Shown here in pieces: positions 7,272 to 45,426 of a stretch of 64,000 nucleotides of DNA; the first letter of the stretch is position 1; the number at the start of each line of letters is the position of its first letter. The notes beneath the pieces were generated by a model. The model was given only the letters and a program-made list of their open reading frames with translations. It had not been told where the DNA came from and ran no database searches. Origin of the DNA: Spinellus fusiger (lineage: Eukaryota > Mucoromycota > Mucoromycetes > Mucorales > Phycomycetaceae). The stretch covers positions 1 through 64,000 of the forward strand of contig JALLLS010000109.1 of the NCBI GenBank assembly GCA_025094145.1, given 5' to 3'. The translations under genes and the position numbers were made by a program.

Positions 7272-8642
7272 CAGTGTTCGGCAAAATATATATAACCTTT
7301 TTCATTCTCAGACCTTTATTTTGCTCAAAATAAATTCTTTTTTATACTTATTCCTCATTTATTCTTTTCCTGCTATATCATTTATTATGTCTAACACTAC
7401 TGAACAAATCACCAAGCCTATTGGAAACAGAAAAAAGAATATTGATGATTTTACTTGTAAACTCATTCTTCACTAGGCCACTGTAAATGGCACCAAACAA
7501 GTGGATATTGCAGTCATATTTGGTGTCAGTAAACCCACTGTCAGCCTTATCATAAAGAGATATAGGAAAACTGACAGCTTCAAATCAGGAAAGAGATATA
7601 GACGCAAGTCTATTCTGAAGGATATGGACGAGAGAGAGGTTTCTTGTGAGATGGAAAGGGATTCATTTCAGACAATAGATCAACTTTGCAAGCAGATGAC
7701 CACCAAAGTGTGTATGAGCACCTTTAGAAATATGATGAAGCTTGGCTTGTTTTCTTTCAGGGTGGTTAATAAACCTTCCCTCACCATTAAACACAAGAAG
7801 TTGAGGCTTGCTTGGGCCAAGGTCCATCTCCCCTGGATTGAGGAAGAGTAAAAGGTAGTCATCTGGTTTGATGAGTCAAGGTTCCAGTTGATGAAGACCA
7901 ACAACCGTAACAGAGTGGTGCGCAGAAAGAAGGGGGGCTACTCCCAAAGAACATTTATCCAAAAAAGGAGGTTTGGTGATGGTGGGGTGATGGTGGAGGG
8001 GTCCTTTTCTGGTGAAGGTGTTGGTAGACTTGTTACGGTGGAGGGGTCCATCAATAGCGCCAAATACACCAGTATTTTAGAAACGGCCTATTGCCCCGAG
8101 CTGTCTTGTCTTTTCGGCACTGAATTCAGTGGTAGGCTGTGTTCTTCAAGAGGACAATGCCAGTTGCCATACTAGTAAGGAGACTAGGAAATGGAAGGAT
8201 GAGAGAGGCATTGTCACTGTGGAGGTGTTGCCCACTCAAAGCCCTGACCTGAACCCAATTGAACATCTTTGGGAAGAGTTGGACAGAGTAGTTCGGAAGA
8301 GGATGACCCCAGAAAGCACCCTCCAGAATCTGAAGGATATTTTGGTCCAAGAGTGAGATAAAATCCTCAAGGAGGTTACCAACAACCTCATCAACAGCAT
8401 GCATCGGAGATGTAGGGCTGTGATAGAGACCAAGGGTGGAAGCATCAAATATTAAGGGTTTCCACCCAGTAAACTTGTATATGTTATCCTGTTATCCTGT
8501 TGAACTTTCTTTTATATCTAATCCAATTTTCAAGTCTCTACTGTGTGTTTAATGTGTGTTTTTATGACAAACAATAAGTATTTCCCCAAACAAGAATCCT
8601 ATCGGAAAATAAAAAGGGTTATATCTATTTTGCTGGACACTG
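7272..8642 (+). mobile_element. Tc1/mariner transposon Tc1-A (right copy), defective
   Basis: 1371 bp, bounded by TA at 7270-7271 and 8643-8644. Ends read CAGTGTTCGGCAAAATAT and, as reverse complement, CAGTGTCCAGCAAAATAG, so the terminal inverted repeat is imperfect. Both ends have a LINE fragment directed outward (6785-7258 and 8657-9364). Confidence 0.88.
7387..8455 (+). pseudogene. Tc1-A transposase pseudogene (DD34E), right copy
   Basis: Starts MSNTTEQITKPIGNRKKN. An in-frame TAG at about 7474 follows CKLILH, a TAA follows LPWIEEE (near 7850), and the frame shifts near 8130 so that VLQEDNASCHTS is read in another frame. Domain order is HTH (IAVIFGVSKPTVSLIIKRY), second HTH (TKVCMSTFRNMMKLG), first catalytic Asp in VIWFDESRFQL, second Asp in QEDNASCH, Glu in DLNPIEHLWEELDR, C-terminus GGSIKY. 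Downstream of 7971 the sequence is nearly identical to the left copy. No functional transposase is encoded. Confidence 0.83.
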
Positions 8643-8656
8643 TAGTTCATCCTTAA

Positions 8657-9364
8657 CAGATACCATAGAAAAGGCTACTGTCACTTATGCCAACATGGCT
8701 AAAAAGAACGCCTCTCCACCAAAGAAGACAGCAAAGGCCAGAGCAGTGCTTAGAGCACAAACAGTTCGGGCCTTACAAGAGCCTACTGGGCCCTCAGTAT
8801 ACGACTTTGTACACTTGCCCTGTCGCTGCTACCTCAAGTACGGCCAGATCCGCAAGATGTTGGGATCACTGAAGATCCAACAGTCACGGATCATAGACAT
8901 CCACTTTCCAGCAAGGGGTACAATTGCACTGCTTGTACACAGTAGCTTCAAGCAAGAACTCGAGGAGAAACTCGAGAAATCAAAGATCAAGCCACAGGCA
9001 AGCTTTGATCCAGTAGCTGCAACGGTGATTGCAGACCCTAAGCTCCAGCAGGAGTCAGATAGCACCAAGGCTGTAATGGCCCAAAAACTCTTTGAGCAAC
9101 GAGTGTCCAACACCTGTCTTCGTGCCCCCATTCATTTAGGGCACAGCATTGCTCGCCACTTTGGCTCAAGCATTGCCACACCCCGTCTATCCACCATTGC
9201 CTTTGAGAAGCTCTTGGCAGACCTCAAGGCCAAGGCCACAGTCACCAGCCCTCCCGCCACCCTTGAAAAAGAAGCCCTCCAGGCATTTGGGTCTGACTCA
9301 GCCATGGAAGGAGTCGAGGGAAACAATCAACACACCCAACACCCAAAAATAAAAATACTTTGAA
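8657..9364 (+). mobile_element. LINE copy reduced to ORF1 plus the 3' terminus
   Basis: The 3' end reads CCCAAAAATAAAAATACTTTGAA, the LINE terminus also seen at 38341 and 45412. ORF1 is fused directly to the last ~25 bases; ORF2 and most of the 3'UTR are absent, with CCAACA microhomology at the joint. The copy is flanked by 17-bp direct repeats CTGTAGTTCATCCTTAA (8640-8656) and CTGTAGTTCATCTTTAA (9365-9381), 16 of 17 matching. The first repeat starts with the last three bases of Tc1-A. Confidence 0.88.
8695..9363 (+). CDS. LINE ORF1-type protein (222 aa), orphaned from ORF2
   Basis: Identical to the product of 185-841 through residue 215 (...EGNNQHTQ), then ends HPKIKIL by reading into the fused LINE 3' terminus. 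It contains the same conserved blocks as ORF1 of the long LINE but lacks the N-terminal coiled coil. No ORF2 lies downstream, so the copy could only move with enzymes supplied elsewhere. The frame upstream of MAKKN stays open back toward the Tc1 end, consistent with 5' truncation inside ORF1. RNA binding is inferred from the family, not visible. Confidence 0.65.
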   Translation: MAKKNASPPKKTAKARAVLRAQTVRALQEPTGPSVYDFVHLPCRCYLKYGQIRKMLGSLKIQQSRIIDIHFPARGTIALLVHSSFKQELEEKLEKSKIKPQASFDPVAATVIADPKLQQESDSTKAVMAQKLFEQRVSNTCLRAPIHLGHSIARHFGSSIATPRLSTIAFEKLLADLKAKATVTSPPATLEKEALQAFGSDSAMEGVEGNNQHTQHPKIKIL

Positions 9365-9381
9365 CTGTAGTTCATCTTTAA

Positions 9382-11250
9382 TAAAATATTTATTTAAATA
9401 TATTACTATGCAAGAGTCAGTCGTAAACTAATAAGTGTAGCACTAAGATTGAAGTTATGCTTAATCATTGTGTATTCTTCTTTTTTACCATTTGTTTTTA
9501 AGGTATTAGAGTCATAATGACTCTTTTAAAGTTTCTTTCAGACCCAAAGGATAAGCTAAAAAAAAAGACATGAGATGAGATGAGATAAAATAGGGCTTTA
9601 TCTGATAACATTCTACCGTCTGTTAAATAATGACAGTTATACATCGCTAATTTTTTCAAATCAGTTTCCTTAAAAGAGATATGTTCTATTTCAGTCATAA
9701 ATAACTTTACACATAGTGTTTTGCTGGTAAAGAAGTCTTTACATTTTATTTATAAAAATATAGACCGTCAGAAGAGAAAAAAATACTGATACAGGCTTAC
9801 TCAAAATAAAAAACACATACTAGCAAGATTAAAATAGATACACTAACAATAACACTTTACTGTTGCTTAAGTTTATAAATCAGTGTCTTAATTGACAAGC
9901 CATAGTGTTATACAGTATGTGCTTATAAAAAGCAATACTGATCTTCTGGTAAAACACTCGAGACTTATGAACAACTTTAGTAATCTTTATGGTATGATAT
10001 AGGTCTACTTTAGTGGTAGACATAGTAGAAACTCGTGTAATGAAGAGAAATCAAAATTTATATCAGTATATTTTTATCCATTTTGCTTATTTCTTTGTTT
10101 GAATACTTTAACTTTAACATATCAGTAGCTTGAACGATGTAGATTATTCTGAGGTTTAATAACTCGTATTTTCAAACTTTGAGATTATTGATTGTCTTTA
10201 TAAAGAAAAGAAAAAAGCAGAGGCCACATCAATATCCTTGTGAAGGAGTAAGAAAGCAAATAGTCTAAACATTATGTTTGAGCAAATTGAGAAAATATCT
10301 CATGTAAATCAATTGAACGCTTATGGCATATTTCAAAGAAAAATATATCATTTTATCCCCAAGCAGCAGAAGGAGCTGTTTAATACAGGGATGAGATACA
10401 ATATTATGCTTGTCACGATATTTTCACAGTCAACATGAACCGGTAATGCTGGGTTGTCTTTAATACGTCAATTAGCTCCACTCAATGGTCTTTTCCTTGC
10501 AATGATACTACCCTCAAGCATAGAAGCTGTGGTTCTCATCTGTAGCCAAACCATCGACTTTTTACTAGGCATTTTTTAGAGTAGAATGGTATAAAAATAA
10601 TATCTAAAGATTAAGTCATTGGATAATAAACGAGTAAACTGTCTTTTTCAAGCTACTGTGCTCTTATTTTCTCATGGCGGTTAAAAGAAAACACAGCAAG
10701 TTTAGGGTTTTTTGGGTTTCATATTAAAAAGACTGTCCATTATAAACTTAACTTAGCACTCTTTTGATCCATTGTGTTAAAGATTTATCTATTCTAACAT
10801 CACACCCTGAATAGTGTGATGGTATGGGCTTGAGAGTGTATCCTATGTTTTATATTTTGGAGTACTTTAAAGTCTTAAGGTTTTGTGATGATAGGAATAA
10901 AATGTTATTATTATTAAAAAAAAACATAAATCAATTGAGCACCAAAATAAATTCTTTGGACAAGAACATCCGCTATTATTATTATTCAATAAGGGTATCT
11001 ACCCACCCTAGATTTACTGTAAGACAGTAAAAACAGTGGAAGAATAAAACAGCATGAGCTTAGTATAGCTCATGGGTCAAAATGTTTCTATTCTTTACTT
11101 ATCTCCATCAGTTTAAATATATGATATGATCAGCAACATAGTTCTATTTCTAATATAGAAAATAATAAAGTAAGAATATGGAATACATTATTAATAAGAT
11201 AAAAGAAGGCAGATCTCTATCCTCCCCGACTATCCACTATAAAGGACTAA
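9382..11250. other. Intergenic desert with one coding-like island
   Basis: AT-rich sequence with no complete gene model. On the minus strand 10380-10560 reads as a plausible broken coding segment (SMVWLQMRTTASMLEGSII, then a stop, then KDNPALPVHVDCENI). I cannot place it in a family. Confidence 0.4.
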
Positions 11251-12720
11251 ATAATTACTAAGATAGGTTGCCTTTAGTCTCAGTTCTCTTTCTACTAGAC
11301 ATTATATAAAATAGACAGTGAGATAAACATTCATATAGTTGTATATTAATAATAACAATAGCCAAAACCACACATCTGTTTTCCCAATCAATAGAGTCCA
11401 TTCTTTCTATTTCTTGCTTATAGTCGCAAGATAAATGAATAAAACAGCAATTCAATACAGACTTTTTGTTTATTAGAACAGGTGTGTATAAAGGCACAAT
11501 GAACCAATCATCTACAAATGCAAGTTGAGCATTATCAGATAACATAAGTGATATCCTCTTATTAATATATCTCTATAATCTAACTCTAATCTATTAAGTA
11601 ATCTATTTAGTCATTTTGGATGAATAAATGACTGGATAAAAAGATAAAGCAGAAAACATTTTATTATGTCTTAATTTATATCTCAATAGAATATATTTAT
11701 ATATTTTAATTATAAAAGCCCTCAACTGTTCACAAGCGAAACAAATGACAAATAGAAGAAAAGAGCGCCGAGAGAACCCACATTGGTGAATTAGCAAATC
11801 AGTAAAAAGATTAGCCTACAAAGGGTAATATTATTATACTTTTGCCCGTATTAGTAATAATGAGATGACTGATGTTTATATGTTCATATATGTATATTTT
11901 AAATGGGCCTTTTAACCTTTTCTTTATTTGATCTCAAATATATACAGCCGACCTTATATTTCTTAATATAAATAAATACACATATAGAAGGAGATATAAT
12001 AGAGCCACTGATGACTATGGGGTTTCTTTTTTTTTGGATGAACATCAAGTTGTGCTTAGATGCTGTTCCATTGAAGAGAATCTTATGGGTGATACTTTAA
12101 TTTACTTACTTTTGCAAAGGGTGACACTAAGAAGGCGCTTTCTTGTATTCAGAAAATCGCTGAGATAGAACAGGGATAGGCCGTAAAACACCGGCAGCAG
12201 TAAGAGCAGTGGTATATGAAAGATAACCAACGATCTCTGTGAAGATCACACCATTGTCAATCGATTAATTCCATATTCATTTATTCTATATTTAAACTAG
12301 ACACAATAGAGGATCTGTTCTATTCTACCTGTTCTTACTTTCTTGTTCTTCAGTTGTAAACCATAGAGAAGATACAAAAATAAAGTTATTGTCCAACATA
12401 AAATCTGATTTACAAAATAGATAGGTGAAGGGTTATCCAATCATATATTCTTGTAGTTATTATTCTGAAATCCATCTACTCATCATGGTTCTCTTTAATA
12501 ACTAGTGCAGTAATGTAATACACATTGATTTAAGCTCCAATCATGCCTTGTATTATCGGTTTGTGGTGTATAGAGTTAACGAGGACACCATCAACAGCCT
12601 CAGTTACTCGACCTGAAATCTGATAAGTATGTATAAGATAGCGCCAAGACGTTATATCAATATCACTATTAATTAAAACAATGGAGCCAGTTGAAAGAAA
12701 TTAGACCTAATCTATCCACT
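11250..12720 (-). pseudogene. Possible multi-exon membrane-protein gene or remnant
   Basis: Several minus-strand segments look like exons of one gene: around 12540-12700 (SWRYLIHTYQISGRVTEAV), around 12110-12240 (FHIPLLLLLPVFYGLSLFYL ending at a GTAAGT donor), around 11700-11815 (FSRRSFLLFVICFACEQLRA) and 11258-11545 (FVDDWFIVPLYTPVL). Hydrophobic helices and the cysteine/arginine pattern resemble the 7TM gene at 2684-4339. I could not join them into a continuous frame and do not identify the product. It may be decayed or chance. Confidence 0.3.
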
Positions 12721-14740
12721 GCTAATATCAGCGGTAATGACCTCACCTCACCTTACACTGCTCAAAACCTTATTCGCTCGCTTATGCTTGCTCTAATATT
12801 TTCTCTATGTGTGTTACTTGACTCAAACATCTAGGGTTGAACATGTTTCGATACTTTATGAATATCTTGTCTATTTTGTTTCATTTTATTCTGTATCTTG
12901 CATTTTTACGTTTTACATTATAATCTTCTTTACTTATCACATGTATTACCCAATGAATAATTGTGTCTGTCTGTGTTAAAGCAGAGTCCCTGTAACAGCT
13001 GTCCTTTGTTTTATATTTTTATACATATAAAAAAGCAAATGCCCTTCAGGGAACCAAGTCATGTACCACCCTTAGCAGTAAGAGAGACACTAAGCAAATT
13101 CATAAAAAAGGAAATTGGGGGTGGAAGAAGAAGAGAAATTTCATAGACCTGCTAACCCATAGGATTTGTAAGTGAGCGGCCCTCTAATGTATTAATATAT
13201 AAACATAAACATATAAAATATCACAGCGTTCATCTTTAAATGACTTTTCATGTTTTACTTGTTACTTAATTTGCTACCCTGCATATCAATGAACAACATG
13301 AATCTGCCTAACCAAAAAGATATATTAATAAATGAATAGTATTATCCAGAAATTGTAAATGGAAATCGCTGTTGGGAATTGGATGAGAGTATAGACAATG
13401 ATTGGATCATTTTTCTTCTTTCTTTCTATAAGTATCCAAACGTGTACACAGATTTTTCTTAATGGGTTGAATGATAAGCCTGGAAGATGACTAGGTGCTT
13501 ATTAAGTGCAGTAGTAATTCTTTCGGTTTCAATGCTTAGTATCAATTATAATTGATTTACTATAGATTATTCATTTTATATTGATAAATAAAAATATAAT
13601 TGTGGATTAATGTAGACAGGTGTTATTTATAGGGGCTTACTACTTCAACTACAATGCTGATCTATTCAGGCATAGTGTTTATGGTCGTTCCATTGGATGG
13701 GACTTTGCATTATAGCTGTACCTATTTATCAATTTTTTTATATTCTTAGTGTTGGTGCTAACACAATCAATTATAGCCACACTTGCTATTTCAATCACAT
13801 AAACTGGCATGGTACGAGTGATTGTAAGTAAATCCATATTAGTTAAACAGTGTCAACTCATTCGATACAAAGAATCCTCCCTATGAAACAACTGTTTAGT
13901 CTATTTATTTATTTATTTTAGAATTTCCACTCATGTTCTTTCATGTTGACATGAGGTTGGAGTAACAATTGCTTATCCATATTATTTTACTTTACATTTC
14001 ACACTCACTCTCTTTTACCATTAAGCCTTACACATTTGTGTAATAATACAGAGACAAGACATACAGTTTTAATCTTATCATCACTATTTAAAAATAAATA
14101 ATAATTGATATATTTTCATACACATTTATATAAAAAGATAACAACAATACACTTGCACGTAGCTATCGTATAATGACGGATGAAACAAACCAATAAGAAC
14201 GACCAAAGAGTGATGTTCCTTTTTATTTTCTCGGGTGTTTAACTGGGCCGGAAGCAATAAGATAAATTATAATATAAATATAAAAAAAAAACTGCCACTC
14301 TCTATACTAGGAAAGGGGTGAACGTTGAAATGTGTCTTTTTTATATATATATCTAATTCTTTTTTAGCATTTGGGTTTTAGAATAGTATCTATGTAATCT
14401 GTCATCTATTGCAACGACCTTTTATTCTATTGTATACATTGAGATCTATGAGTAGACTCTCCTCCTATATCTAGGATGGAGGGTCAATAACATTGAAAAG
14501 AAAAGCTATTGTAATAAGAATAATAGAAACTAAGTCCATGGAATAGGAGATGGATGAATAGTGTAAATAGTAGCCACCCGCACTTATCAATAATAAAAAT
14601 AACAATAAAGAACCCTGGCACAATGATTCTCTGTGCCAATGAAAGACCTTTAATGTCCATGTGCACTGATAGTAGGAGTTCTATAGAGTTGATTGGTATG
14701 TGTTGATAAGGATAGAGTGTTGAACGTAAAAGGGAGATTA
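12720..14740. other. Intergenic desert, no gene seen
   Basis: AT-rich; the only longer ORF (12961-13146, plus) has a low-complexity tail and no recognisable domain. Confidence 0.4.
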
Positions 14741-14742
14741 GG

Positions 14743-15900
14743 ATATCCTTGGGCTGGACAGTCTAAAGTTTTCTGTCTCTGCACTGTCTTTTTGTTTCAA
14801 CTGACCCAATAGATTCTTAAGTGGTCGGGCTTCTTCTGTGATCTGTGGGTGTCGAATGTATAGAAAAGTGTGTTGGCTGACATGTGGCAGTCAAGGAATC
14901 TCAAATAAGAAAGCATCACTTGTTTCTTTGATTTACCTGCGGACACATTTGCCTCAATTAGATGAGGATGTGGTGTCAGGGTGCTGATGTTGATACCAAT
15001 ACTACTACTACTACTACTACTACTAATAATAATAATAATAATACATTTGCTGTAATTGCATATAATTCTGAGGGAATAGAAATCCAGGAAAATGAAAAAT
15101 AAGTTCTATGAAATTTGATGTCTTTCATACCATTGGCACGTTACTTCTCCTCAAACAGACTATTCTTCTAACCCCTGGTTTGTCTATAGCTGGCTCACTC
15201 GTCTTTAAGATTTATTTATTCAATTAAAAGAAAGTTCCTTCTTAATGTGTGTAGGATGACAATCTAATAATTAAATGCTATTTAGAATAATAAACAATAC
15301 AGGTATTCCAGGCCATGACAATCACATGCCTCATCTCTACAGCAGAGTGTTTAGTTTATAAGATAGAGACACTGGTGGATGATGAAAAGACCTATGCTTC
15401 TTCTAGTATTACCATACCCTTCATCTGCTGTTGTTTATTGGTATGCATCCAGTGGAGACTCTAGATCTTTTTTCTTCTGAATAAGAATCTTTCTGTTACT
15501 TCTAATGATGAGAACAGACTGCCCTTGAGAATAAAAATAAAAAAGTGCAAGATACATTTGCTTGGTTATTTATCAGAAAAGGGAGAAGTTGGAGAGAATG
15601 ACAAGGTATCCATGAATAGAATGTTTCAGCCAATTGGTCTGTATCTCGGTGGTCTGTGGAGAGGTGTCCCTCGCTCACTCCTTCAATCACTCCACTCGTC
15701 TACTTTTCTATCTATTTCTTATCACTCGTCTTTACAAGCTGGAACTCCTGATAAGTCTATTCTGTATTCATCTCCCACCTCATGGTAATGGCATTCCATA
15801 GACTCCGCACTTTTCTCCTTATCCTGTACCTTGGACTTATTTTTCTTACATTTAAGTCTTCAACACTACTTGATAGAGTGTGCTCAATAAGCCAAAGCAC
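14743..15900 (-). pseudogene. Coding-like islands, unidentified minus-strand gene or remnant
   Basis: Minus-strand segments with amino-acid composition typical of coding sequence occur in order: 15740-15870 (SMECHYHEVGDEYRIDLSG), 15600-15690, 14860-14930 (LSYLRFLDCHMSANTLFYTF) and 14743-14850 (ITEEARPLKNLLGQLKQKDS, ending in a stop after SSPRIS). A (CTA)n/(AAT)n microsatellite at 15001-15042 falls between them. I cannot assemble the segments and recognise no family. Confidence 0.28.
15001..15042. repeat. (ACT)n/(AAT)n microsatellite
   Basis: Tandem ACT triplets pass into AAT triplets. Confidence 0.9.
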
Positions 15901-17630
15901 ACCCTCTGGTGGATCTGGGTTGATACTATAATCTTAATTCAGCCTCCTACACCCACTTTTATTTTATTTTATCATTTAACCAGTGATCCAAAACAAAGCC
16001 TGAATATGCATCATTAAAGCAATCTGGGATTGATCTGTTGCTGCCATTGTTAAAAATCCCCATAAAGACATGGCTTCGTTTCATTCTCCAGGATTTATGG
16101 ATGTGGGGTGATTACAAGCGTTACCATAAGTTTTTTTTTTGTTTTTTGTTTTTGTTTTGTTTTTTGTTTTTCAAATCGAGTCTCTGTGAGTGGAGTATGG
16201 ATAGTGACTGAGGAAAATTAAATAAAAGCAGAAACAATAAAGATCTCCTTGCTTTATTATTATTATTATGAATACCATTGACCTTGGTAACAAATGTAAA
16301 AGCACAAGTGGAATGACTAGCATAGGGTATGGGCCTATTTTTACTTTCTTTTTTTTTTACTTTTTCTCTAAATTTCTCTTTTGATTCCTTCCATCTCCCT
16401 CCATGTATCAATATGGGTACTATTCTAGTTTAATAGTGAGAGACAGAAACCTCAACAGAACCTCAGCGTGTTCAAAGTCAGTGCATTTCATTCTTCTCAT
16501 TTTCACAAATTTCTAATAAGCTACGCCTTCTCTGTTTTGTATGGCGATAGAGTGTATGTTAAGCACCAGAAATAGGAATAAAAGAAACGCAGATAATAAA
16601 TGATCAAAAAGATAAGTATTGCTACTGCTGGCAGTTTTTGTTTATCATTTATGTCTCATTTTCTCACGCCACTTTAGCTTGACTTTAAGTTATTGCAAGC
16701 TATACTTACACAACATTGTCTGTGTATATTTCTGTTATCATTTCTTTCACTCTAGTTTATCCATGGCAGAGAGACATTTTGTGGCAGAACAAAAAGAAAA
16801 AGATCAATTTTTTAGCAGTGATGGTCTTATTTTATCTCTCTCTTTCTATTGACTGATTTGTTTTAAAATAGTAATACAAATACTCAATAAAAGAGTGGAG
16901 ACTGGAATGTTGGTTGAATTGCGAGCTTATCCATCTCAATTGCTCGGAGGATAGCTTTTGTTCCTATTTAAATCTCCTGCTGTTATGAAAAATGAACGCA
17001 GCCGCATTGCTCACTCTAGTTTTGATCTACCGCTCCTTGTGTTAAAAGCAACAAAAACAAAAGGAATCCAAGGCAAGAGAAAGAGAGAGAAAGAAAAAGA
17101 AAAAGAAGAATATTTCGTTTTTATTCACTTGTCAATAACAATAAGAATCCACATATCAATGCCAAAGTAGGATGGAGAATAGAGGCCACTTTCTTGATCA
17201 ATACAGCCAAAGGTATCTATACGCTATGCACAGTGCAAGGAGAGAAAGAGAATGACATATTTTTATATATGCCACTATCTCTCTACCTCAAGGGTTGTTC
17301 ATTAAATGAGCTATAAAATATACCTATCAGAATCCATGTGATAAAAACAGTTATTCTCTTATTTGATCTTATCACAGCTGCAAACACTCGTAGGATTCTC
17401 TTCATACCCTATCATTCTTCTATCTGCACACCTTTTTCCCTCTTGTCTTTTTATGATAATGATTATTTTCCCCACTCTATCCCCCGCCTTTCCCCACTCC
17501 CCACTCCCCCCATCTACTTCATCCCATGCACTTTGTTTCTGACAAACAAACCCCATAGCATAGTAGATCCTTGGATGACAATTTTATGAATAATGAAACC
17601 ACTGTCTTTCTCTGCTCACTCAATGACATT
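15900..17630. other. Intergenic desert, no gene seen
   Basis: Contains T-rich runs (16132-16168), a short ATT tract (16256-16268) and a pyrimidine-rich stretch (17425-17520). The ORFs present are low-complexity. Confidence 0.4.
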
Positions 17631-17634
17631 GTTC

Positions 17635-17922
17635 CTATCGTTGGTTATGCTCATCTACAAAGACAGCAGCTGTAAATAGCACGTATTCTTCTGTTTGCAC
17701 TACATTATAAGTACTTATTTCTCGTGTTACGTAAGAATTGGGTTTTAAAATCGTTGCTATGAAAGAGGAAACAGACGAGATGGAGAGAGAGGGTTTGGTC
17801 TCTTGAGAGAGAGAGTAAGGGTTAAGCGAATTTTGCCATTGATCGGCTTTACCTGTTGCTAAAATAGAAAAGAAAAAAAAAGAAAGTCCAAATAGAAAGT
17901 AATAGGAAAGACAAATCTTCAT
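17635..17922 (-). CDS. Possible small secreted protein (95 aa), doubtful
   Basis: The ORF begins with a signal-peptide-like N-terminus (MKICLSYYFLFGLSFFFFSI, then ATGKA) followed by a Ser/Thr-rich region. Part of the hydrophobic segment is encoded by a T-rich run, so the resemblance may be accidental. No family is recognised. Confidence 0.25.
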   Translation of the reverse strand: MKICLSYYFLFGLSFFFFSILATGKADQWQNSLNPYSLSQETKPSLSISSVSSFIATILKPNSYVTREISTYNVVQTEEYVLFTAAVFVDEHNQR

Positions 17923-17929
17923 AGAGAGA

Positions 17930-20600: not shown

Positions 20601-20689
20601 TTTTATTTTATTTCATTAGTAGAATAGGTGCAGTGATTGTGGTTGTTATGGTGGTTGTTATGGTGGTTGTTATGGAGATTATTATTGTT

Positions 20690-36489: not shown

Positions 36490-36670
36490 CAAAATTGTGA
36501 CTGGTGTATACAAAAAGATACACACACATCACACACAGCAACACAAACTCATCATACTATATGAAAAACAAGACAGTAAAGAACAGAACTCCTTTCTCTT
36601 TATTATCCAATCAGTCAATAGAATACATGTTTGAGAGACAAGCTGACAGTACTTTCTCTTGTGACGTGTT

Positions 36671-37517
36671 TTATTCCATGTCTCTGGACAGCTTGTCTCC
36701 ACTTGTACCGTCTGTCTTTTTCTCTTCAATGTCTTCCTCCTCCTCTTCCTCTTCTTCAATGTCTTCTTCAATGTCTTCTTCAATGTCCTCTTCAATGTCT
36801 TCTTCTTCAATGTCCTCTTCTTCTTCAATGTCCTCTTCCTCATTGAGTTTCTTCTTTCTCTGTGAATCTTCCTTCATAGAAACATCTTTCTCCAACTGAC
36901 GCTTCTTTCCTCTGTGAGGAGAGGGATCATCCACTTGCATGGCCACTTCCTGAACACTCACTCCATCCTCCTCTGTCTTTTTTTCTTTTTTACGCAGCTT
37001 CTTATCCGACTGTAACTGTTGGTACACTGCCCATAAAGAGTGAGCAACATCTGTGTTTATCCTCTTTCTCTAATGCCCTGTTTTACCTGTAAAAGACTCT
37101 TTCAACAGTGGAGACAAATGATCCAACTCTAGGATTTCCATGGCTTTAAACACGTCTGCAGCAGAGATTGTCTTGTGGTTGGCACTCTTGGCAATATCAT
37201 TTGCACTAGTAAAGAAGAAAGAAAAAGAAAGAGAGAAAGAGAGAGAGTAAGAAACAGATTTCTTTTTTTTTTCTTTTTTTTTCAATAACCCACTTACACT
37301 GTGCTAAGGTAACTGATAAACACAGCAGACGCTTTGCTCACTGCTAATTTCGCATCTTTTTGAAGTGCAGTGCCAGTCGGTAACTTATACCAAGGGATAA
37401 TACTGGTAAGAAGGATGAATGCTTCAGTAGACAAGTAGACTCACTGATACTTACAGCATTCTTGAGGACTCTGGCTACGTTGGCCTTGGGCAATTCGTTA
37501 TCTTCAATAGAAGACAT
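36671..37517 (-). CDS. dpb4: DNA polymerase epsilon subunit / CHRAC histone-fold protein (POLE3, Dpb4 type), 207 aa
   Basis: Four exons (37455-37517, 37298-37383, 37087-37205, 36671-37026) sum to 624 nt. The histone fold reads [20 protein letters not shown], then [20 protein letters not shown], then AANDIA-type helix ([20 protein letters not shown]) and [19 protein letters not shown], as in POLE3. It pairs with a POLE4/Dpb3-type partner in DNA polymerase epsilon and in ISWI (CHRAC) remodellers. The C-terminal half is charged: a Lys-rich region, then a repetitive acidic tail of EEDIEE units encoded by tandem TCTTCAATGTCC-like repeats (36725-36842, genomic strand). The tail is longer than in human POLE3 (147 aa in total). 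The exon 2 acceptor was placed at ATAAG before TTACCG because earlier AGs give a stop. Confidence 0.9.
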
Positions 37518-37895
37518 GTTGAGACTTTTCTTTTATATAGATATATAGATATATGTGTGTGATTCTATAATTATAGTGTTCTTCACTTGGCTAACAGGCA
37601 AATAAAGAAGCAAAAAGGGGTTTACAAGTGTGTGTAAGGAAAAGAAAAGAGAGGAAAAATATAAAATATGAAAATAGAAACACGTATTCAATTGACTGAG
37701 TAAAGTAGCCGTCACATGAAAACATAAAATAAAAAGGCAAGTCCACTCGGGAGTGATTAGAGGAATGATCAAATGTATTCAATGCTAAAGGAAGTCTTCT
37801 TTCTTTTCTTAATAGGGTTATCACTTTATGGACTCATTAGATAGAAGCATAGAGCCTTCAATAGATGCATAAAGTAGTGTATAAGATACATAATA

Positions 37896-38340
37896 GTGGT
37901 TTTTATTACCAGGTTGCTTAGTAACCATTGTTGGTCTTTGGCATCTATCACAGCCTGGCATCTCCGTCCTATGCTGGTAACAAAGGTATCTGTTACTTCT
38001 TTCGATATTTTATCTTATTCTAGCACCAGAGCAGCCTTCAACTCATGTTTGGTGGAGTATACCCTTTTGTTCTTCCTAATAATATTCAATTAAGCCCACA
38101 GATGCTCCATTGGATTAAGATCAGTATTGCAAGAAACAGTAAAGAGTCATTGCTATACCATTTACTGCTCTCTCATTGGGTTGTCTTACTCGTATGAGGT
38201 CTAGTATCGTCCTCTGTAAGTATTAACTGACTCCAGAGTTTATATATATATATATATGTGTGTGTGAGTATGTGTGTGAGTGAGTGAGAGAGATGCTCGA
38301 GTTCATGGAGGTAGACATCTCCCAAGACATCAATGTACAG
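37896..38340 (-). pseudogene. Tc1-C transposase relic, C-terminal half
   Basis: The minus strand reads YIDVLGDVYLHELEHLS (38280-38336), then microsatellite (TA/TG) insertions, TEDDTRPHTSK with the second catalytic Asp, and, after frameshifts, DLNPMEHLWA with the Glu and SIGRRCQAVIDAKDQQW. Its N-terminal continuation is at 45427-45580, on the far side of the Tc1-B/LINE nest. This old copy was the landing site of Tc1-B. Confidence 0.72.
38242..38291. repeat. (TA)n/(TG)n/(GA)n microsatellite inside the Tc1-C relic
   Basis: Alternating TATATA, TGTGTG, GAGTGAGTGAGAGAG. Confidence 0.85.
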
Positions 38341-38814
38341 TTCAAAGTATTTTTATTTTTGGGTGTTGGTTGTTATTCGCGCATTGGGCATTTTAGCCAC
38401 CCTATGAGATCGTTTGAACAATTAAGATATACATATAAACACTTCAAATACATAAGTGAAAAAAATAATGCAAAGAGAGAAGAGACGGAAAGAAAAGAGA
38501 ATATAAAACCTCGAAATGAGGGGAAAATAATGAAAATGAGTGGAAATGATGGTAAAATGAGAATTATGAATAGACATCCAAAAGGCCATAAAGTCAGCAA
38601 GGAAACCAGGACACCAAAAAGATAACCGTCATCCTGTGGCGATTCGAAATCCAACGAGGGATACTTAGAGCAACTCGGACAATCCTGAGAATATATCTAG
38701 CAGTTACACTAACAGCTTCTGGCTTTGCTAAACAGGTTAAGAATGGGTAGTAGAGGAGAGATCGGAGGAGAAGTGAGGATACAGCGTCTGTTGCTGCAGG
38801 AGTCTTTGCACTCT
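38341..38814. repeat. Inverted-repeat arm: LINE 3' end (left)
   Basis: About 474 bp, inverted and closely similar to 44937-45412. The arms are the 3' ends of two LINE copies in opposite orientation, not transposon TIRs. Confidence 0.88.
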
Positions 38815-41145
38815 ATGGCGGCGTTGGCGTTCCCGCTCAACACACCCATCAGCAGCCTCAATGAGCAGGCTACCAGCTGATGGCTCTACCTTAAAGTCTC
38901 GAGTAGACGTGGCTCGATCAATGGCTTGCAGCAGTATTAACAAACTGGGCCAAAGATCTCGCCATTTAACAAAAGACTTAACCGTGCGCGGCAGAAGATT
39001 TAGACAATAGTCAATTGGATGAACGTCTTGTGTTGGTGCAGGAACTAAGAAGAACAAGAACGTGGAGCGTTCATGGTCAACGAATGTGCAAGTGAGAAAG
39101 TGGTCCCGATTGGCAGATGGGTGGCCACATTGGCAAGGAACTGAAGGTGTTGGTGGTAACCAAGCAATCCTCCATTTTAGTAGGCGATGTATTTCTTTGC
39201 GCGTGCACGGTAGTAGAAGAATTGGATCCCAAACAGGTCTACATAGTCCACGGGCTACCGTCACCAGCGGATTCTTGCCACGTACTAGACTAGTAATTTT
39301 ACTTTGAAGACGTTCAAGATAAGCTACTTTTAATGGATATTTAGGAGGGTTGTGAGCCCGTCCTATTCTTTGAGCATTTTGCCAGAGTACATTGCCACGT
39401 AGCTTAATCCATCTGGCTTTACTCTGGGGTGCTTCAAGCTGCGGGACAAGGCACCAGAGGAGGGTGTCTTCAGGAAGGGTAGCTGCGCGCTCAACAAATT
39501 TGGCTTGCAGATAAAGAAAACGAGAGTATATGTTAGGGAGGGCAGCTAATTGGGCAACCTGGATCGTTCCAAACCTAGCAGTAGCAGATCTAGCAAGACA
39601 AAGTCTCAGACAAGCAGACTGACAGATTTGTAGCGGGCGGATGCCTAGTCTATTGACATTACAAATAGCCAACCCATACTCAAGGATAGGCCGAACAAAA
39701 ACAGTATACGCTCTTAGGGCTGCTGTAATCCCAAAGCCATACATGTTTACACCCATTCCTCTCAGCTTTTGCATTACTGCAATTGCCTTGACTTGTGAGT
39801 GTGAGAAAAGTGCGTCTTGGTTAATACCTTGACGTGAAAAGGGGATACCAAGGTACTTGAAAGTATCACAGGTTGGAAGCTCGTTGCCATAGAGGTAAAA
39901 CGGCACATTGGCCGGGGCATTGAGTACTTCACATTTGGAGGGACTCCATTTGTAACCAAGGAGGGTCGAGTGAATTTCGGCAAGTGCCAGCATTCGATGT
40001 ATATCTTCTGGGCAGCCCATAAGAGCCACATCATCAGCATACAACAAACAATTCACAGGAGCCCAAGTAACAGTGACATGAGACGGACTGTAAGAGGAAT
40101 CTGACAACTCAGAAGAGTCATCCGAAACTGTAGAAGTAGGAAAAGGATTGTGAAGGGAATTCTGTAACTCGTCAAGCAATGCGTGAACAGTTGCCTGTGG
40201 GGAAGCAAAAGAGAAAGGATTTCGAGCACAGAGATTAATGGACCGTCCCATGGTAGGTGGGTGCATACCAACCAGTATTGGGGATACCGAAGCAAACCTC
40301 AAGAAACGTGGAAGAGTATCAATGAAAATAGAATAAAGAAATGGAGAAAGAATACTACCCTGTAAGACTCCTCGTTTAGGTGCAATGTCCCGGGATGCTA
40401 CATTTTTCAGAATCACATTCACCACAATGTCATCAAACAAATTCTGTAGTAGCAAGAGCAACGGCTGAGACACGAAGGGCATCAGCGACTCCCATATGAC
40501 AGAGCGTTCCACACTATCATATGCAGCTTTAATATCTAGGAAGACGACGACTGGAGGTTTTGGATCTTGCTCTCCTGATCCTTGGGCAGCGTACAACCCC
40601 ATAAGTTCGTGGAGACAGAGGGCCTGGTCTAGAGTTCCACGACGAGCGCGAAATCCACCTTGAGCCATGTCCAATGCAGGCATGGTCGAAAGGAGCTCCC
40701 CAGCTATACATCTTTCTAAGAGCTTACGAAACACCGATGTCAAGCTAATAGGCCGATAGTTACTAGGGTCATCCTGCTCTCCTTTGTTTTTGTAAATAGG
40801 TACCACCTGTGCTGTTCTCCAGGCCACAGGCGTCCACGACCATCTCCAACACAATGTGAAGATCTGATGTAACAGAGGCACTAGCACTCGAACTAGGGGT
40901 TTGAGCATTTCTGCTCTAATATGATCAATGCCTGGTGCTTTTCGATTTGGCATCTTTCGAATAGCAGAGTGAATAAAGTCTACGTCCCATGGGACTGGAT
41001 TGTCTTGGAGAGTAAACTCCTGACGCTCCTGTCTTTCCGTAGATCCGCCAAACACTCTCTCTAGGTGGTCAATCATGCGATTGGCAGCATGCCGAGGGCC
41101 CTCTGGAGATGACAGGGAAATTGGCGAACGTCTCCGCAGCCTCAT
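38737..41145 (-). CDS. LINE ORF2, reverse transcriptase part (802 aa)
   Basis: Target-primed reverse transcription domain. Motifs in order: VPIYKNKGEQDDPSNYRPISL (finger region), GFRARRGTLDQAL, VVFLDIKAAYDSV with the first catalytic Asp, GVLQGSILSPFLYSIFID, and LLYADDVALMG with the YADD catalytic pair. The C-terminus has a CQCGHPSANRDHFLTC zinc knuckle of the type common in non-LTR ORF2 proteins. There is no RNase H domain. The frame differs by one base from the endonuclease part, overlapping it at 41069-41145. In an active element this would be one polypeptide; here either a mutation or frameshifting separates them. The first Met (41145) is only the first in the frame, not a demonstrated start. 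Confidence 0.92.
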   Translation of the reverse strand: MRLRRRSPISLSSPEGPRHAANRMIDHLERVFGGSTERQERQEFTLQDNPVPWDVDFIHSAIRKMPNRKAPGIDHIRAEMLKPLVRVLVPLLHQIFTLCWRWSWTPVAWRTAQVVPIYKNKGEQDDPSNYRPISLTSVFRKLLERCIAGELLSTMPALDMAQGGFRARRGTLDQALCLHELMGLYAAQGSGEQDPKPPVVVFLDIKAAYDSVERSVIWESLMPFVSQPLLLLLQNLFDDIVVNVILKNVASRDIAPKRGVLQGSILSPFLYSIFIDTLPRFLRFASVSPILVGMHPPTMGRSINLCARNPFSFASPQATVHALLDELQNSLHNPFPTSTVSDDSSELSDSSYSPSHVTVTWAPVNCLLYADDVALMGCPEDIHRMLALAEIHSTLLGYKWSPSKCEVLNAPANVPFYLYGNELPTCDTFKYLGIPFSRQGINQDALFSHSQVKAIAVMQKLRGMGVNMYGFGITAALRAYTVFVRPILEYGLAICNVNRLGIRPLQICQSACLRLCLARSATARFGTIQVAQLAALPNIYSRFLYLQAKFVERAATLPEDTLLWCLVPQLEAPQSKARWIKLRGNVLWQNAQRIGRAHNPPKYPLKVAYLERLQSKITSLVRGKNPLVTVARGLCRPVWDPILLLPCTRKEIHRLLKWRIAWLPPTPSVPCQCGHPSANRDHFLTCTFVDHERSTFLFFLVPAPTQDVHPIDYCLNLLPRTVKSFVKWRDLWPSLLILLQAIDRATSTRDFKVEPSAGSLLIEAADGCVERERQRRHRVQRLLQQQTLYPHFSSDLSSTTHS

Positions 41146-42331
41146 TCCTTTTCACAGCACTTGTCATCTCTGTTAAGCCCTTACGGACTTTATCACAAAA
41201 TACATGCCAGGTTTGTCGTTGTGCTTGCCTTATAGCCTTTTTCAAAGCTAAACACGCTTCCTCATACAAGCGGTGGGCTTCAATGCGTTCAATATCATTG
41301 CCTACCCGTCGTCTAAAACGATAAAGTTCTTGACGACGGTCAGCTAACTGTTGTAGATCAGCATTCCAGTAGCTTTTCCAAGCTTTTGGATGGGATTGTG
41401 CGCGCCCTACGCTATCATCCAGGGCCTTGTAGATTGACTCATTGAGTCTCTCAGCAAAGTCCTCCATCTTAACAGAGCACAACGGGGTTTTGTCTTCCAA
41501 TATTTTTTGGATCTCTCTTTGCAGTTCACCTGTGTTCTCTGCAAAACATCGCTTGTACTGGTCACAGACTGTTTGTTTGTTTAAACGTTGCAGTCTCCAG
41601 AGGCGACGGACAGCTGTTTCTGTCATGAGCGGTGGCATGAGCACCGGCTGAAAGGACAGCTCACACAAGTGGTGGTCTGAACCTAACGTCAGATCGTCCC
41701 TAATGTGCAAGCACACTTCGGAGAAGTTGTAGCTTCTTGACAGGAACAGGTCAATAATGCTAGCAAACCGACGACCATCTGCTAGAATTCGCTCATATGT
41801 AGGCAAGCCAAATGCCAACTCTGAGTTCCACAAGGTTAGATCCTGACGGCAGATCCAGTCTTCAAATCCCACATGTCTGTCGTTTATGCCATGATCTCCA
41901 GTCAGGCGGCCTAAACGTGTATTCAGGTCACCAAGGACGAGTGTGAAGTCGTCTATGGGTAGTGAATTCAACCTTTCCGCAGCCTCACTAGACGACAGCC
42001 TCGGAGGTAGGTACAGACCATGGAGTGTATATGGGCCAATCCTACAGGAGACCACAAAAGGATTAGTAATTGGTAAGGAATGTACATGGTAAGGAAAGTC
42101 AGGACGAATAAAGAACGAAACTCCATCAAAACCTCGTCCAGCATCACCATGGGCTGTAGCATAGTTGTGTATTTGTATCCAGGGGCACCTCAACATTTGC
42201 ATGTCTTTGGTCAGGAAAGTCTCTGTCACTAAAAGTATATCAATATCATTCTGCACACACACATTCAGAACGTTCACCAGTTTGGGCCTGATTCCACAAG
42301 CATTCAATAGACCAATCTTCAGTCTATTCAT
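41069..42331 (-). CDS. LINE ORF2, apurinic-like endonuclease part (420 aa)
   Basis: The endonuclease/exonuclease/phosphatase fold is recognisable: KIGLLNACGI with the conserved Asn, LLVTETFL with the metal-binding Glu, GDLNTRLG with Asp/Asn, and a final SDHHL with the catalytic His. A basic, Arg-rich linker follows (LYRFRRRVGNDIERIEAHRL) that leads to the RT. The ATG at 42331 overlaps the TGA of ORF1 as ATGA. In LINEs this enzyme nicks the target DNA and sets site preference; the junctions in this window suggest a preference for Tc1 termini. The frame ends soon after 41145, where the RT frame has already opened. Confidence 0.9.
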   Translation of the reverse strand: MNRLKIGLLNACGIRPKLVNVLNVCVQNDIDILLVTETFLTKDMQMLRCPWIQIHNYATAHGDAGRGFDGVSFFIRPDFPYHVHSLPITNPFVVSCRIGPYTLHGLYLPPRLSSSEAAERLNSLPIDDFTLVLGDLNTRLGRLTGDHGINDRHVGFEDWICRQDLTLWNSELAFGLPTYERILADGRRFASIIDLFLSRSYNFSEVCLHIRDDLTLGSDHHLCELSFQPVLMPPLMTETAVRRLWRLQRLNKQTVCDQYKRCFAENTGELQREIQKILEDKTPLCSVKMEDFAERLNESIYKALDDSVGRAQSHPKAWKSYWNADLQQLADRRQELYRFRRRVGNDIERIEAHRLYEEACLALKKAIRQAQRQTWHVFCDKVRKGLTEMTSAVKRNEAAETFANFPVISRGPSACCQSHD

Positions 42332-43242
42332 AATTCTTCTCGGTGGATGTTTTGGGCGTCTCCCTCATCTTCTTCCATAGCTGAGCCTGATCCAAATGCC
42401 TGGATGGCCTCTTCTTCAAGGGTGGCGGGGCGGCTGGCAACTGGGGTCTTGGCCTTGAGATCCGCCAAGAGCTTCTCAAAGGCAGTGGCAGAGAGGCGGG
42501 GAGTGGCATTACCAGAGCCAAAGTGGCGAGCAATGCTGTACCCTAAGTGGGTGGGGGAACGAAGACAGGTGTTTGACACTCTCTGGTCAAAGAGTTCCTG
42601 GGCCTTTGCAGCCTTGGTACTGTTGGTTTCCCCTTGGAGCTTTGGGTCTGCAATGACTGCAGCGGACACAGGGTTGAAGTCCTTCACTGGACTGATCTTA
42701 AGCTTCTCGAGGTGCTCCTCGAGTTCCTTCTTGTAGCTGCTGTGGACCAGCAGCGCAACTGTTCCCCTTGCCGGGAAGTGGATGTCAATGATCCGTGACT
42801 GTTGGATCTTCAACGATCCCAACATCTTGCGGACCTGGCCGTACTTAAGGTATCGGCGGCAAGGGACGTATACGAATTCGTACACTGAGGGTCCAGTGGA
42901 CTCCTGCAAGGCACGTACTGCTTGTGCCTTAAGCACTGCTTTGGCCTTTGTAGGCTTCTTGGCCTGGGGGTTCTTCTTTGCCATGCTGGCGTAGGTGGTG
43001 GGTGTGGGTGTGGGTGTGGAGGTTGGGGCATGCTTTGAAGCAGCAGTCGAGTTGTCCTGATTGGCAGGGGTGGCAGGGGTGGCAGTGGTGGTGCTGTTGG
43101 TGGTGCTGGTGGTGCTGGTAGTGGCCTGAGCCTGGAGGGATGCAATCATTGCATCCTTGGCCTTCAATTGGGCCTCCAATTCCTGGATACGGAGTCCAAA
43201 GATCTCCATCTGTTTTTGGATTGCCGCCATCATCTGCAGCAT
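42328..43242 (-). CDS. LINE ORF1 protein
   Basis: From the first in-frame ATG (43242) the protein begins MLQMMAAIQKQMEIFGLRIQ, a coiled coil, followed by a Thr/Ser/Pro-rich linker (about residues 45-85), then the conserved half shared with the two truncated copies (PTGPSVYEFVYVPCR type, with SLKIQQSRIIDIHFPARGTV). The open frame extends upstream without a stop to 43527, with PPATYITLDPLTTDPTSAP and a basic KLLAKRTRARTNEEN; the true start may be lost by 5' truncation or be non-AUG. No CCHC zinc knuckles are seen. The TGA stop overlaps the ORF2 ATG. Confidence 0.82.
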   Translation of the reverse strand: MLQMMAAIQKQMEIFGLRIQELEAQLKAKDAMIASLQAQATTSTTSTTNSTTTATPATPANQDNSTAASKHAPTSTPTPTPTTYASMAKKNPQAKKPTKAKAVLKAQAVRALQESTGPSVYEFVYVPCRRYLKYGQVRKMLGSLKIQQSRIIDIHFPARGTVALLVHSSYKKELEEHLEKLKISPVKDFNPVSAAVIADPKLQGETNSTKAAKAQELFDQRVSNTCLRSPTHLGYSIARHFGSGNATPRLSATAFEKLLADLKAKTPVASRPATLEEEAIQAFGSGSAMEEDEGDAQNIHREEL

Positions 43243-43560
43243 TTGTTGGGCGTGGGTGTCGGCCTTTTCCACCTCGGATATTTTGTTCTCCTCGTTGGTT
43301 CTTGCTCGGGTGCGTTTGGCAAGCAGTTTTTCTTTTCTGCTTTTAGGGACGTCGTAGGTGGTGGGGACGTCGGTAAGGCCAAACTCGAAGGGTTTGGCGG
43401 GTGGTGCTGAGGTGGGGTCCGTGGTTAATGGATCCAGTGTGATATAGGTGGCGGGGGGTGTTGGTGTTGACGGATGGGTGATTGTAATGTTTGCTGTAGA
43501 TTTTATTATAACTCTTTGGGGTAATATTTATTACGCGAAAGAGCCTCCTTCCAACAAGTA

Positions 43561-44924
43561 CAGTGACTCGTGGAAATCTTACGTAGATTTTTTACATTCC
43601 GATATGATTCTTGTTTATGGAAATACTCATTCTTTGTCATAAAAACACACATTAAACACACAGTAGAGACTTCAAAATCGGATGAAGTATAAAGAAGGTC
43701 AATAGAATAATAAAAATAATTTTATTGGGTAGAAACCATTAATATTTGGTGTTTCCACCCTTGGCCTCAATGACGGCCCTACATCTCTGATGCATGCTGG
43801 AAATGAGGGCGTCTGTGGTGTCCTTGGGGATTTTCTCCCATTCTTCCAACAGAAGCACCTCCAAATCCTGGAGAATGCTTCTTGGGTTCATCCTCTTGCG
43901 GATAGCCCTGTCAAGCACCTCCCAAAGGTGCTCTATGGGGTTGAGATCGGGGCTCTGGGAAGGCCACCCCTCCATGGTGGCAATGGTCTCTTTTGCCTTC
44001 CACAACCTGGACTCTCTGCTCTTGTGGCAGGTGGCATTGTCCTCTTGAAGAACATAATCCACCTCTGGATTCAGTGCCTTGAGTCGGGCCAGCTCAGGGC
44101 AGTATTACTTCTTCAATATCTCAATGTATCTTGCACTATCAATACTGCCCTTCACAGGCGCCAATCTCCCAACACCTTCACCAGAGAAAGATTCCCACAC
44201 CATCACGCTACCACCTCCAAACTTCACAGTAGGGTTGACGTTCTTTGGGAGCAGTCCTTCACTCGCTTTTCGTACTACCCTGGTACGGTTGTTGGTGGTG
44301 ACCAACTGGTATCTGGACTCATTGGACCAGATGACCGTCTTCCAGTCGTCCTCGGTCCAGTGGAGGTGGGCCTTAGCCCAAGCAAGCCTCAGCTTCTTGT
44401 GCTTCTTGGTCAAAGAAGGCTTCTTGACCCCCCTGCAAGATAACAGGCCAAGCTTCTTCATCATCTTTGAGAAAGTGGTCATGGACACTTTGGTGGTCAT
44501 CTGGCTGCGAAGCTGATTCATTGTCTGGAATGAATCTCTTGCCACTTCGCGGGCAACTTCTCTCTCGTCCCTCTCTGTCAGAATGGGCTTGCGCCCAGTG
44601 CTCTTTTTGGCCTTGAAGCAGCCAGTTTCCTTATATCTCTTTACGATAAAGGAAACCGACTGCGCACTGACTCCAAACCCAGCAGCAATGGCAACCTGCC
44701 TGGTCCCATTTACCGTGGCCTCGTGAGCAATGAGGCATCGAGTGAAGTCATCGATATTTTTCTTCTTGTTTCCAAGAGGTCTCATGGGTTGTTCAGTGGT
44801 GTTAGATGAGGTAGACATTATGGTGGAAAAGCAATAAATGAGGAATGTTTAATAAAATAAAAAATTTTAAGGAAGAAATTAGGGTTTGAATTTGAGATCT
44901 ACGTATGTTTTCCACGAGCCACTG
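43561..44924 (-). mobile_element. Tc1/mariner transposon Tc1-B
   Basis: 1364 bp with 28-bp imperfect TIRs (CAGTGACTCGTGGAAATC and, reversed from the right end, CAGTGGCTCGTGGAAAAC). TA at 43559-43560 and 44925-44926. It is a different TIR subfamily from Tc1-A, though the transposase-coding 3' flank is similar. LINE copies start 11-12 bp outside both ends. Confidence 0.92.
43739..44818 (-). pseudogene. Tc1-B transposase, nearly intact pseudogene
   Basis: About 360 codons in one frame with a single stop (TAA near 44105, after ARYIEILKK). Domains: MSTSSNTTEQPMRPLGNKKK start, HTH (VAIAAGFGVSAQSVSFIVKR), second HTH (TKVSMTTFSKMMKKLGLL), catalytic region VIWSNESRYQL, QEDNATCH, DLNPIEHLWEVLDR, C-terminus KGGNTKY. 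The first catalytic Asp of the DD34E triad is Asn here (WSNES versus WSDES in Tc1-A left). A helix rich in TKKHKKLRLAWAKAH is preserved. With both the Asn and the stop, no active enzyme is made. Confidence 0.88.
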
Positions 44925-44936
44925 TACATTGATGTC

Positions 44937-45412
44937 AGAGTGCAAAGATTCCTTCAGCAACAGACGCTGTATCCTCACTTCTCCTCCGATCTCTCCTCTA
45001 CTACCCATTCTTAACCTGTTTAGCAAAGCCAGAAGCTGTTAGTGTAACTGCTAGATATATTCTCAGGATTGTCCGAGTTGCTCTAAGTATCCCTCGTTGG
45101 ATTTCGAATCGCCACAGGATGACGGTTATCTTTTTGGTGTCCTGGTTTCCTTGCTGACTTTATGGCCTTTTGGATGTCTATTCATAATTCTCATTTTACC
45201 ATCATTTCCACTCATTTTCATTATTTTCCCCTCATTTCGAGGTTTTATATTCTCTTTTCTTTCCGTCTCTTCTCTCTTTGCATTATTTTTTCACTTATGT
45301 ATTTGAAGTGTTTCAATGTTTATTCTTTTTTTTTCAAACGATCTCATAGGGTGGCTAAAATGCCCAATGCGCGAATAGCAACCAACACCCAAAAATAATA
45401 AAATACTTTGAA
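44937..45412 (+). mobile_element. 5'-truncated LINE copy (3' end only)
   Basis: 476 bp matching the ORF2 C-terminus and 3'UTR of the long LINE, ending AATAATAAAATACTTTGAA. Its 5' break follows TACATTGATGTC, which borders the Tc1-B right end. It lies in opposite orientation to the long LINE. Confidence 0.9.
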
Positions 45413-45426
45413 CTATACTTGTTGGA

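Follow-up and report, generated by a model that had tools for sequence, protein, structure and literature searches.

Background

Tx1L of Xenopus laevis, a long interspersed nuclear element (LINE) with an apurinic-type endonuclease, is reported to use the DNA transposon Tx1D as its target, and its site is an internal one that lies within a single family of piggyBac-like transposons. In mammals, the LINE derivative HAL1 (half-LINE) carries open reading frame 1 (ORF1) and lacks open reading frame 2 (ORF2), and the LINE of Mucor, Grem-LINE1, is known for centromere regions. Passages of one published account list transposons among the targets of LINEs, and say of the Tx1 and R1 clades that they are target-specific and equipped with an apurinic-type endonuclease (PMC4640811). 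Here we describe a LINE of the fungus Spinellus fusiger, analyzed in a stretch of 64,000 nucleotides (contig JALLLS010000109.1, positions 1 to 64,000; C12:1-64000 in our numbering, hereafter the window) and in the assembly to which it belongs (38,076,753 bases in 197 contigs), the one genome to which all LINE and Tc1 counts below refer. Its insertions are very probably directed to the final three bases and flanking TA of many subfamilies of Tc1 transposons, at either end of the transposon and with the 3' end of the LINE facing away from it. We know of no other LINE that aims at a tip common to many Tc1 subfamilies and, among the matches listed in our literature search, none dealt with LINEs at Tc1 tips by its title or the start of its abstract.

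LINE 3' ends at Tc1 tips

In the genome, 185 places carry the strict form of the LINE 3' end, as compared to none for the reversed control. A total of 184 of these places were listed and 93 distinct ends (about half) were read, comprising 52 that belong to the window or to the first 60 loci, and 41 obtained when 40 of the 132 remaining places were drawn at random; the first 60 loci form a non-random set, made up of the best matches to an ORF1-only element (see below) and the earliest places in contig order. Directly following the terminal TTTGAA, the pentamer CTGTA was observed in 76 of the 93 ends, and in 31 of 41 when the random draw is taken by itself, against a background in the window of 0.0011 per position. 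The remaining ends carry CTATA (4), CTGTG or CTTTA (3 each), CTGAA or ATGTA (2 each), and CTGAT, CTATT or CTGAG (1 each). Additionally, the word TTTGAACTGTA is found 608 times genome-wide and 61 times when reversed, and several hundred copies therefore keep the junction rule. The enrichment of CTGTA downstream of LINE 3' ends, which a first-pass annotation of the window had put forward as a test, is upheld, and chance is ruled out as its cause by the three results together (185 against 0, 608 against 61, and 76 of 93).

The 5' end lay beyond reach in 19 of the 93 copies. Among the 74 copies that were examined, 48 display a target-site duplication with a mode of 15-16 bp and a length of mostly 14-17 bp. 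Nine of these 48 sites are tandem, standing behind another LINE 3' end, and tandem copies carry the same duplication; both orders of insertion predict identical sequence in such copies, and the arrays L006, L022, and L060 retain a visible Tc1 further up. The 39 non-tandem sites include 27 in which the duplication starts three bases inside a Tc1 tip, as judged by nucleotide match with the window's two Tc1s, TcA and TcB, as reference. In six others (L013, L016, L018, L063, L076, L090), diverged Tc1-like transposase frames lie near the tip, at a distance of 71 to 811 bp. Similarly, a random subset of 16 non-tandem duplicated sites contains 10 Tc1 tips, 3 sites beside a Tc1-like transposase, and 3 others. 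Of the 26 copies without a duplication, eight have Tc1 nucleotides at their 5' end and three (L043, L073, L091) a Tc1-like transposase. The Tc1 end on the 3' side of the transposase is used 18 times and that on the 5' side 9 times (hand count; p=0.12).

From the window, the first-pass annotation had proposed that this LINE inserts at Tc1 termini, and had named as contrary evidence a finding that most duplications lack Tc1 terminal bases. Genome-wide, 27 to 33 of the 39 non-tandem sites are at Tc1, with 10 plus 3 of 16 in the random draw, and the proposal stands. By the criterion that most copies lie in one defined target, the element is a target-specific LINE, and its specificity is strong but not absolute, as 5 to 6 of the 39 sites are off Tc1.

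Sequence read at the target site

CTGTA is almost fixed in the 39 sites, those outside of Tc1 included, and CA precedes it in 27 of them. From position +5 outward, information amounts to at most 0.24 bits at any position, indicating that the flank outside Tc1 is not read. The first-pass annotation had assigned the host Tc1s to two subfamilies; across the genome the targets are more diverse than this, and some are without CA before CTG; Tc1-like tips of this latter kind are occupied in L013, L016, L018, L027, L068, L076, L079, and L090. To compare sites on and off Tc1, a matrix was built from the 27 Tc1 sites with the last two bases left out. The five sites that are neither Tc1 nor the end of another repeat score between -2.2 and -21.7, much as CTGTA sites of the window do (mean -12.1, standard deviation 8.0), as against a mean of 12.1 for Tc1 sites left out in turn. 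Scores from five sites are a weak guide, and suggest that the inverted-repeat sequence may not be what the LINE itself reads. We think that CTGTA is the minimum read, and that a further Tc1-specific factor strongly favors Tc1 tips over CACTGTA located elsewhere.

A possible route of insertion

Since CTGTA directly follows the 3' end of the LINE, the first-strand primer should end ...TACAG-3', and because Tc1 begins CAG on the primer strand, the bond opened should be set three nucleotides inward from the 5' end of the Tc1. In the route that we propose, the bottom strand would be opened at this bond (TACAG^TG), the ...TACAG-3' end would prime reverse transcription, probably while paired with CUG(UA) beyond GAA in the LINE RNA, and the cut in the top strand would fall in unselected flank, at a distance of 14-17 bp outward. 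The copy of the duplication nearest to the Tc1 gives its tip CACTGTA once more, which regenerates the target and lets arrays grow. The sequence GAACTGAACTGTA was read at two ends (L026, L087), as would be expected of a slipping primer on a template RNA in which CUG follows GAA. Passages of PMC6895275 indicate that, for R1Bm and other site-specific LINEs, target sequences matter for the contact between element RNA and target DNA. If RNA and primer do pair in the Spinellus element, priming on TACAG-3' should need the CUG, and RNAs ending GAACUG or GAACUGUA should differ in this respect from one ending GAA. We think that target choice reflects pairing or cutting at CTGTA combined with a Tc1-specific factor. 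The TACAG^TG nick could be the work of the LINE endonuclease or of the Tc1 transposase, and the latter is a live alternative.

According to that alternative, which is a form of the directed-insertion reading that puts a name to the Tc1-specific factor, the Tc1 transposase, bound to the inverted repeats, nicks first, on the non-transferred strand and three nucleotides within the element, and the LINE primes on the resulting TACAG-3' and makes the second cut only. Passages of a review on Sleeping Beauty (SB) place the first nick of the SB and mariner transposases three nucleotides inside the element, and state that cutting by Mos1 begins with the non-transferred strand (PMC7827188). The priming bond deduced for the LINE is the same bond as this first nick, which allows for a primer made by the transposase. 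Also in keeping with such a primer are the preference for Tc1 tips over CACTGTA elsewhere, the use of Tc1-like tips without CA at the eight loci listed above, and the matrix scores that set the five non-Tc1 sites apart from Tc1 inverted repeats. The LINE does, however, have an endonuclease domain of its own, and the same five sites, a small number, keep CTGTA, CTATA, or CTGTG; moreover, the cut position in these Tc1s is taken from SB and mariner. We consider a nick by the transposase possible but unlikely. Were it to occur, a retrotransposon would be taking over the reaction intermediate of a DNA transposon, with the target restored at each insertion and arrays growing as a result.

Tc1 tips, CTGTA frequency, and the order of insertion

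It is also conceivable that the LINE endonuclease alone reads CTGTA or CACTGTA, and that Tc1 tips dominate through abundance or through loss of genic insertions. The near fixation of CTGTA in all 39 sites, off Tc1 too, agrees with this idea, as does the excess of CACTGTA genome-wide (9558 against 4888 reversed), by which Tc1 tips could make up a sizable share of such sites, and one that may exceed their share in the control used here. That control consists of 20 CACTGTA sites hand-picked from the first 100 listed, all on the plus strand of contig C1, three of which (L111-L113) have less than 200 bp upstream through the choice of coordinates. It contains a single clear Tc1 end (by eye, beside LINE sequence) and one further site with a weak transposase match, whereas LINE insertions at CACTGTA occupy strict Tc1 ends in 21 of 24 cases (Fisher p=3.9e-8; p=3.0e-7 with the weak match counted). 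CACTGTA recognition is rejected as the sole cause on the basis of this difference. Abundance may be gauged from Tc1 transposase motifs, which with up to two mismatches number 2198 as compared to 240 in a reversed control. The net figure of approximately 1,960 implies, by rough arithmetic, some 3,900 Tc1 ends on offer, about one in ten of which is occupied, against an estimated 84,000 CTGTA sites genome-wide. Considering these numbers, and the 5 of 17 Tc1 tips in a second control drawn from the window, we find it improbable that the endonuclease acts alone.

A reversed order of events, in which the LINE ends ...TTTGAACTG and targets TA, with Tc1s jumping later into the TA of the 5' duplication, would account for the regularity with which TTTGAA is followed by CTGTA, and for L063, whose Tc1-like tip reads GTGTA even though CTGTA stands beyond the LINE. 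It also predicts CTG before the TA at the far flank of the Tc1, and this was seen in none of the four cases that are readable and independent, lying outside the inverted pair (WIN_9364, L021, L063, L079). Tc1 jumping next to existing LINEs is rejected on the basis of these four far flanks. In L033 and L039, CTATA is present on both sides of the LINE, which likewise speaks against the reversed order, and we hold that order to be very improbable. Chance, or the copying of a small number of composite Tc1-LINE blocks, has a negligible claim, for although one duplicated block does exist in the window (1-2258 and 7271-9341), the duplications vary by site, as do Tc1 subfamilies and LINE truncation points.

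Despite the support outlined above, several observations weigh against directed insertion at Tc1 tips. Firstly, 17 of the 93 ends carry a pentamer other than CTGTA, and 26 of the 74 examined copies show no duplication at the threshold used; 15 of these 26 have no assignment, among them L077 and L089, in which distant matches to a transposase were seen. Secondly, six of the 39 non-tandem sites lie elsewhere than Tc1, in five of which no transposon end was found, and the tip of L063 differs from its far junction as noted. Additionally, the window control is richer in Tc1 tips than that from C1 (5 of 17 is separated from the insertions by p=2.3e-4), and the Tc1 class labels were read by hand, without a preset cut-off.

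The six off-Tc1 sites include L039 and L040, L015 (inside a repeat of approximately 15 copies), L065 (inside a LINE), L070 (single copy), and L082, at the end of another repeat, where GCTG precedes TA, contrary to its relatives. These relatives (L121-L132) form a second TA-flanked repeat family, of which L082 is the LINE-occupied member and which ends GGGTGTG before TA in 11 of the 12 fetched copies, two of the 12 being identical.

The LINE and its ORF1-only derivative

The element is a LINE (a retrotransposon without long terminal repeats) with an apurinic-type endonuclease, as demonstrated by its reverse transcriptase and endonuclease domains, constant 3' end, 5' truncation, and target-site duplication. 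The endonuclease domain, Exo_endo_phos, scores 29.9 bits against a cut-off of 24.5 (E 5.8e-7). Compared with solved structures, the reverse transcriptase matches human L1 ORF2p (E 2.7e-13) and R2 (E 1.6e-10), and the endonuclease part gives no match at E 0.01. Among the best 120 of 1630 matches, relatives of the reverse transcriptase come from Mucorales or carry no label, and those that are named include Circinella, Lichtheimia, Umbelopsis, Rhizopus, Mucor, and Absidia. At 41069-41151 of the window, the endonuclease and reverse transcriptase frames of the full-length copy overlap in different frames, and its ORF2 is broken or frame-shifting. L062 and L084 are distant relatives (67% to the LINE chain) that have the same 5' flank and read TTTGAA followed by ATGTA; perhaps they constitute another subfamily with another junction.

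A second element of approximately 1.5 kb (for example L017:966-2487) retains the 5' region, ORF1, and 3' end of the LINE, with ORF2 absent. Its ORF1 of 309 amino acids is whole in 10 of 24 near-full-length copies. Between the ORF1 of this element and that of the LINE, the ratio of nonsynonymous to synonymous substitutions (dN/dS) is 0.24 over 283 codons, and the corresponding ratio of polymorphisms (pN/pS) among the 10 intact copies is 0.60. The ORF1-only derivative has the same Tc1-tip targets as the full LINE. With ORF1 kept, ORF2 absent, and full-length copies present, it fits the description of a half-LINE of the HAL1 kind, and the common 3' end and targets suggest that it may be served in trans by the full LINE.

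Organization of the window

Coordinates of the features discussed are collected in Table 1.

Table 1. LINE, Tc1, and target-duplication features of the 64,000-nucleotide window.
Feature	Coordinates	Strand	Remarks
ORF1-only derivative at tip of third Tc1	1..879	-	5' junction as at 8640-8657; ends at contig end
Third Tc1	894..2258	-	89% to TcA
LINE piece at left tip of TcA	6796..7259	-	Own 3' end lost, leaving duplication uncheckable
Tc1 element TcA	7272..8642	+	TA at both sides
Target duplication, 5' copy	8640..8656	+	Opens with the final three bases of TcA
ORF1-only derivative copy	8657..9364	+	5'-truncated, internal deletion
Target duplication, 3' copy	9365..9381	+	16/17
3' flank of full-length LINE, partner of 44922-44936	38326..38340	-	15/15
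Full-length LINE	38341..43549	-	5' end 43549, 3' end TTTGAA at 38341; 5' start common to other copies
LINE reverse transcriptase frame	38737..41151	-	RVT_1 E 7.5e-21; frame differs from endonuclease part
LINE apurinic-type endonuclease frame	41069..42364	-	Exo_endo_phos E 5.8e-7
LINE ORF1 frame, stop to stop	42328..43527	-	Without family match at own Pfam cut-off
CTGTACTTGTTGGA, TcB tip + TA + flank	43550..43563	-	13/14 with 45413-45426
Tc1 element TcB	43561..44924	-	CAGTG/CACTG tips, TA at both sides; transposase on minus strand, two frames
CTGTACATTGATGTC, final three bases of TcB + TA + flank	44922..44936	+	15/15 with minus strand 38326-38340
5'-truncated LINE at right tip of TcB	44937..45412	+	3' end at 45412
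CTATACTTGTTGGA, 3' flank of short LINE	45413..45426	+	Partner of 43550-43563

TcA and TcB display the features of Tc1/mariner elements, namely flanking TA, inverted repeats tipped with CAGTG, and a Tc1-type transposase (HTH_Tnp_Tc3_2, E 1.6e-12), and five of the six ends of the window's three near-full-length Tc1s adjoin LINE sequence. A letter-by-letter recheck found the three LINE 3' junctions (9364, 38341, and 45412) and the three direct-repeat pairs of the first-pass annotation where they had been reported, with identities of 16/17, 15/15, and 13/14. The pair 8640-8656 and 9365-9381 flanks a single LINE. Each of the other two pairs is split between two LINEs of opposite strand with TcB between them: the sequence beyond the 3' end of the full-length LINE is matched by that ahead of the 5' end of the short LINE (44937-45412) and vice versa, and neither has a duplication when taken alone. 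The LINE 3' parts common to these two copies are 97.3% identical over 477 columns. The simplest reading is that one LINE inserted at each end of TcB, and that an inversion through the common LINE 3' parts followed. Such an inversion explains the crossed pairs, as undoing it on paper gives each LINE its own duplication.

The regions 1-2258 (minus strand) and 7271-9341 (plus strand) are inverted blocks, each composed of a Tc1 and an ORF1-only LINE. Approximately 1.37 kb (7971-9341), LINE junction included, is alike in the two with one mismatch, and the remaining Tc1 sequence is about 80% alike. It looks as though gene conversion copied the LINE insertion from one Tc1 to another. The copy at 1-879 is a duplicate of the event at 8657-9364, and the two have identical 5' junctions. 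Elsewhere in the window, a long AAT-type repeat (50068-50743) gives rise to open frames of N or L runs, and the frame beside it (51126-51620) resembles, by eye, a G-protein alpha subunit. A plasma-membrane ATPase from this DNA has its nearest matches among proteins of the Mucorales (Apophysomyces, 89%), and a match from Spinellus fusiger is 75% alike.

Comparison with known systems

If the interpretation given here is correct, the Spinellus element would add another independent example of LINE specialization on a DNA transposon, tying together two unrelated classes of parasite in one genome. The target is made anew by each Tc1 jump and, apparently, again by each LINE insertion, and the system lets LINE target choice be traced to the endonuclease, to pairing between RNA and primer, or to nicks made by another enzyme.

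The element agrees with Tx1L in being a LINE whose endonuclease is of the apurinic type and whose target is a DNA transposon. Tx1L differs in having one internal site in one family; targeting of this internal kind is not what was found here, where the sites are the tips of many Tc1 subfamilies, and where the priming bond that we infer coincides with the first nick of a transposase. The ORF1-only derivative resembles HAL1 in possessing ORF1 without ORF2, and differs from it in being aimed, as the full LINE is, at Tc1 tips. Grem-LINE1 is likewise a LINE of the Mucorales, but one of centromere regions and, among the matches listed, without a link to Tc1. Finally, when compared by targeting traits, LINEs of the R1 clade share with the present element a fixed target, a constant 3' junction, and possible pairing between element RNA and target, as far as passages of two articles describe them (PMC4640811, PMC6895275); they are directed to repeats such as ribosomal genes, whereas the targets of the Spinellus LINE are transposon tips.

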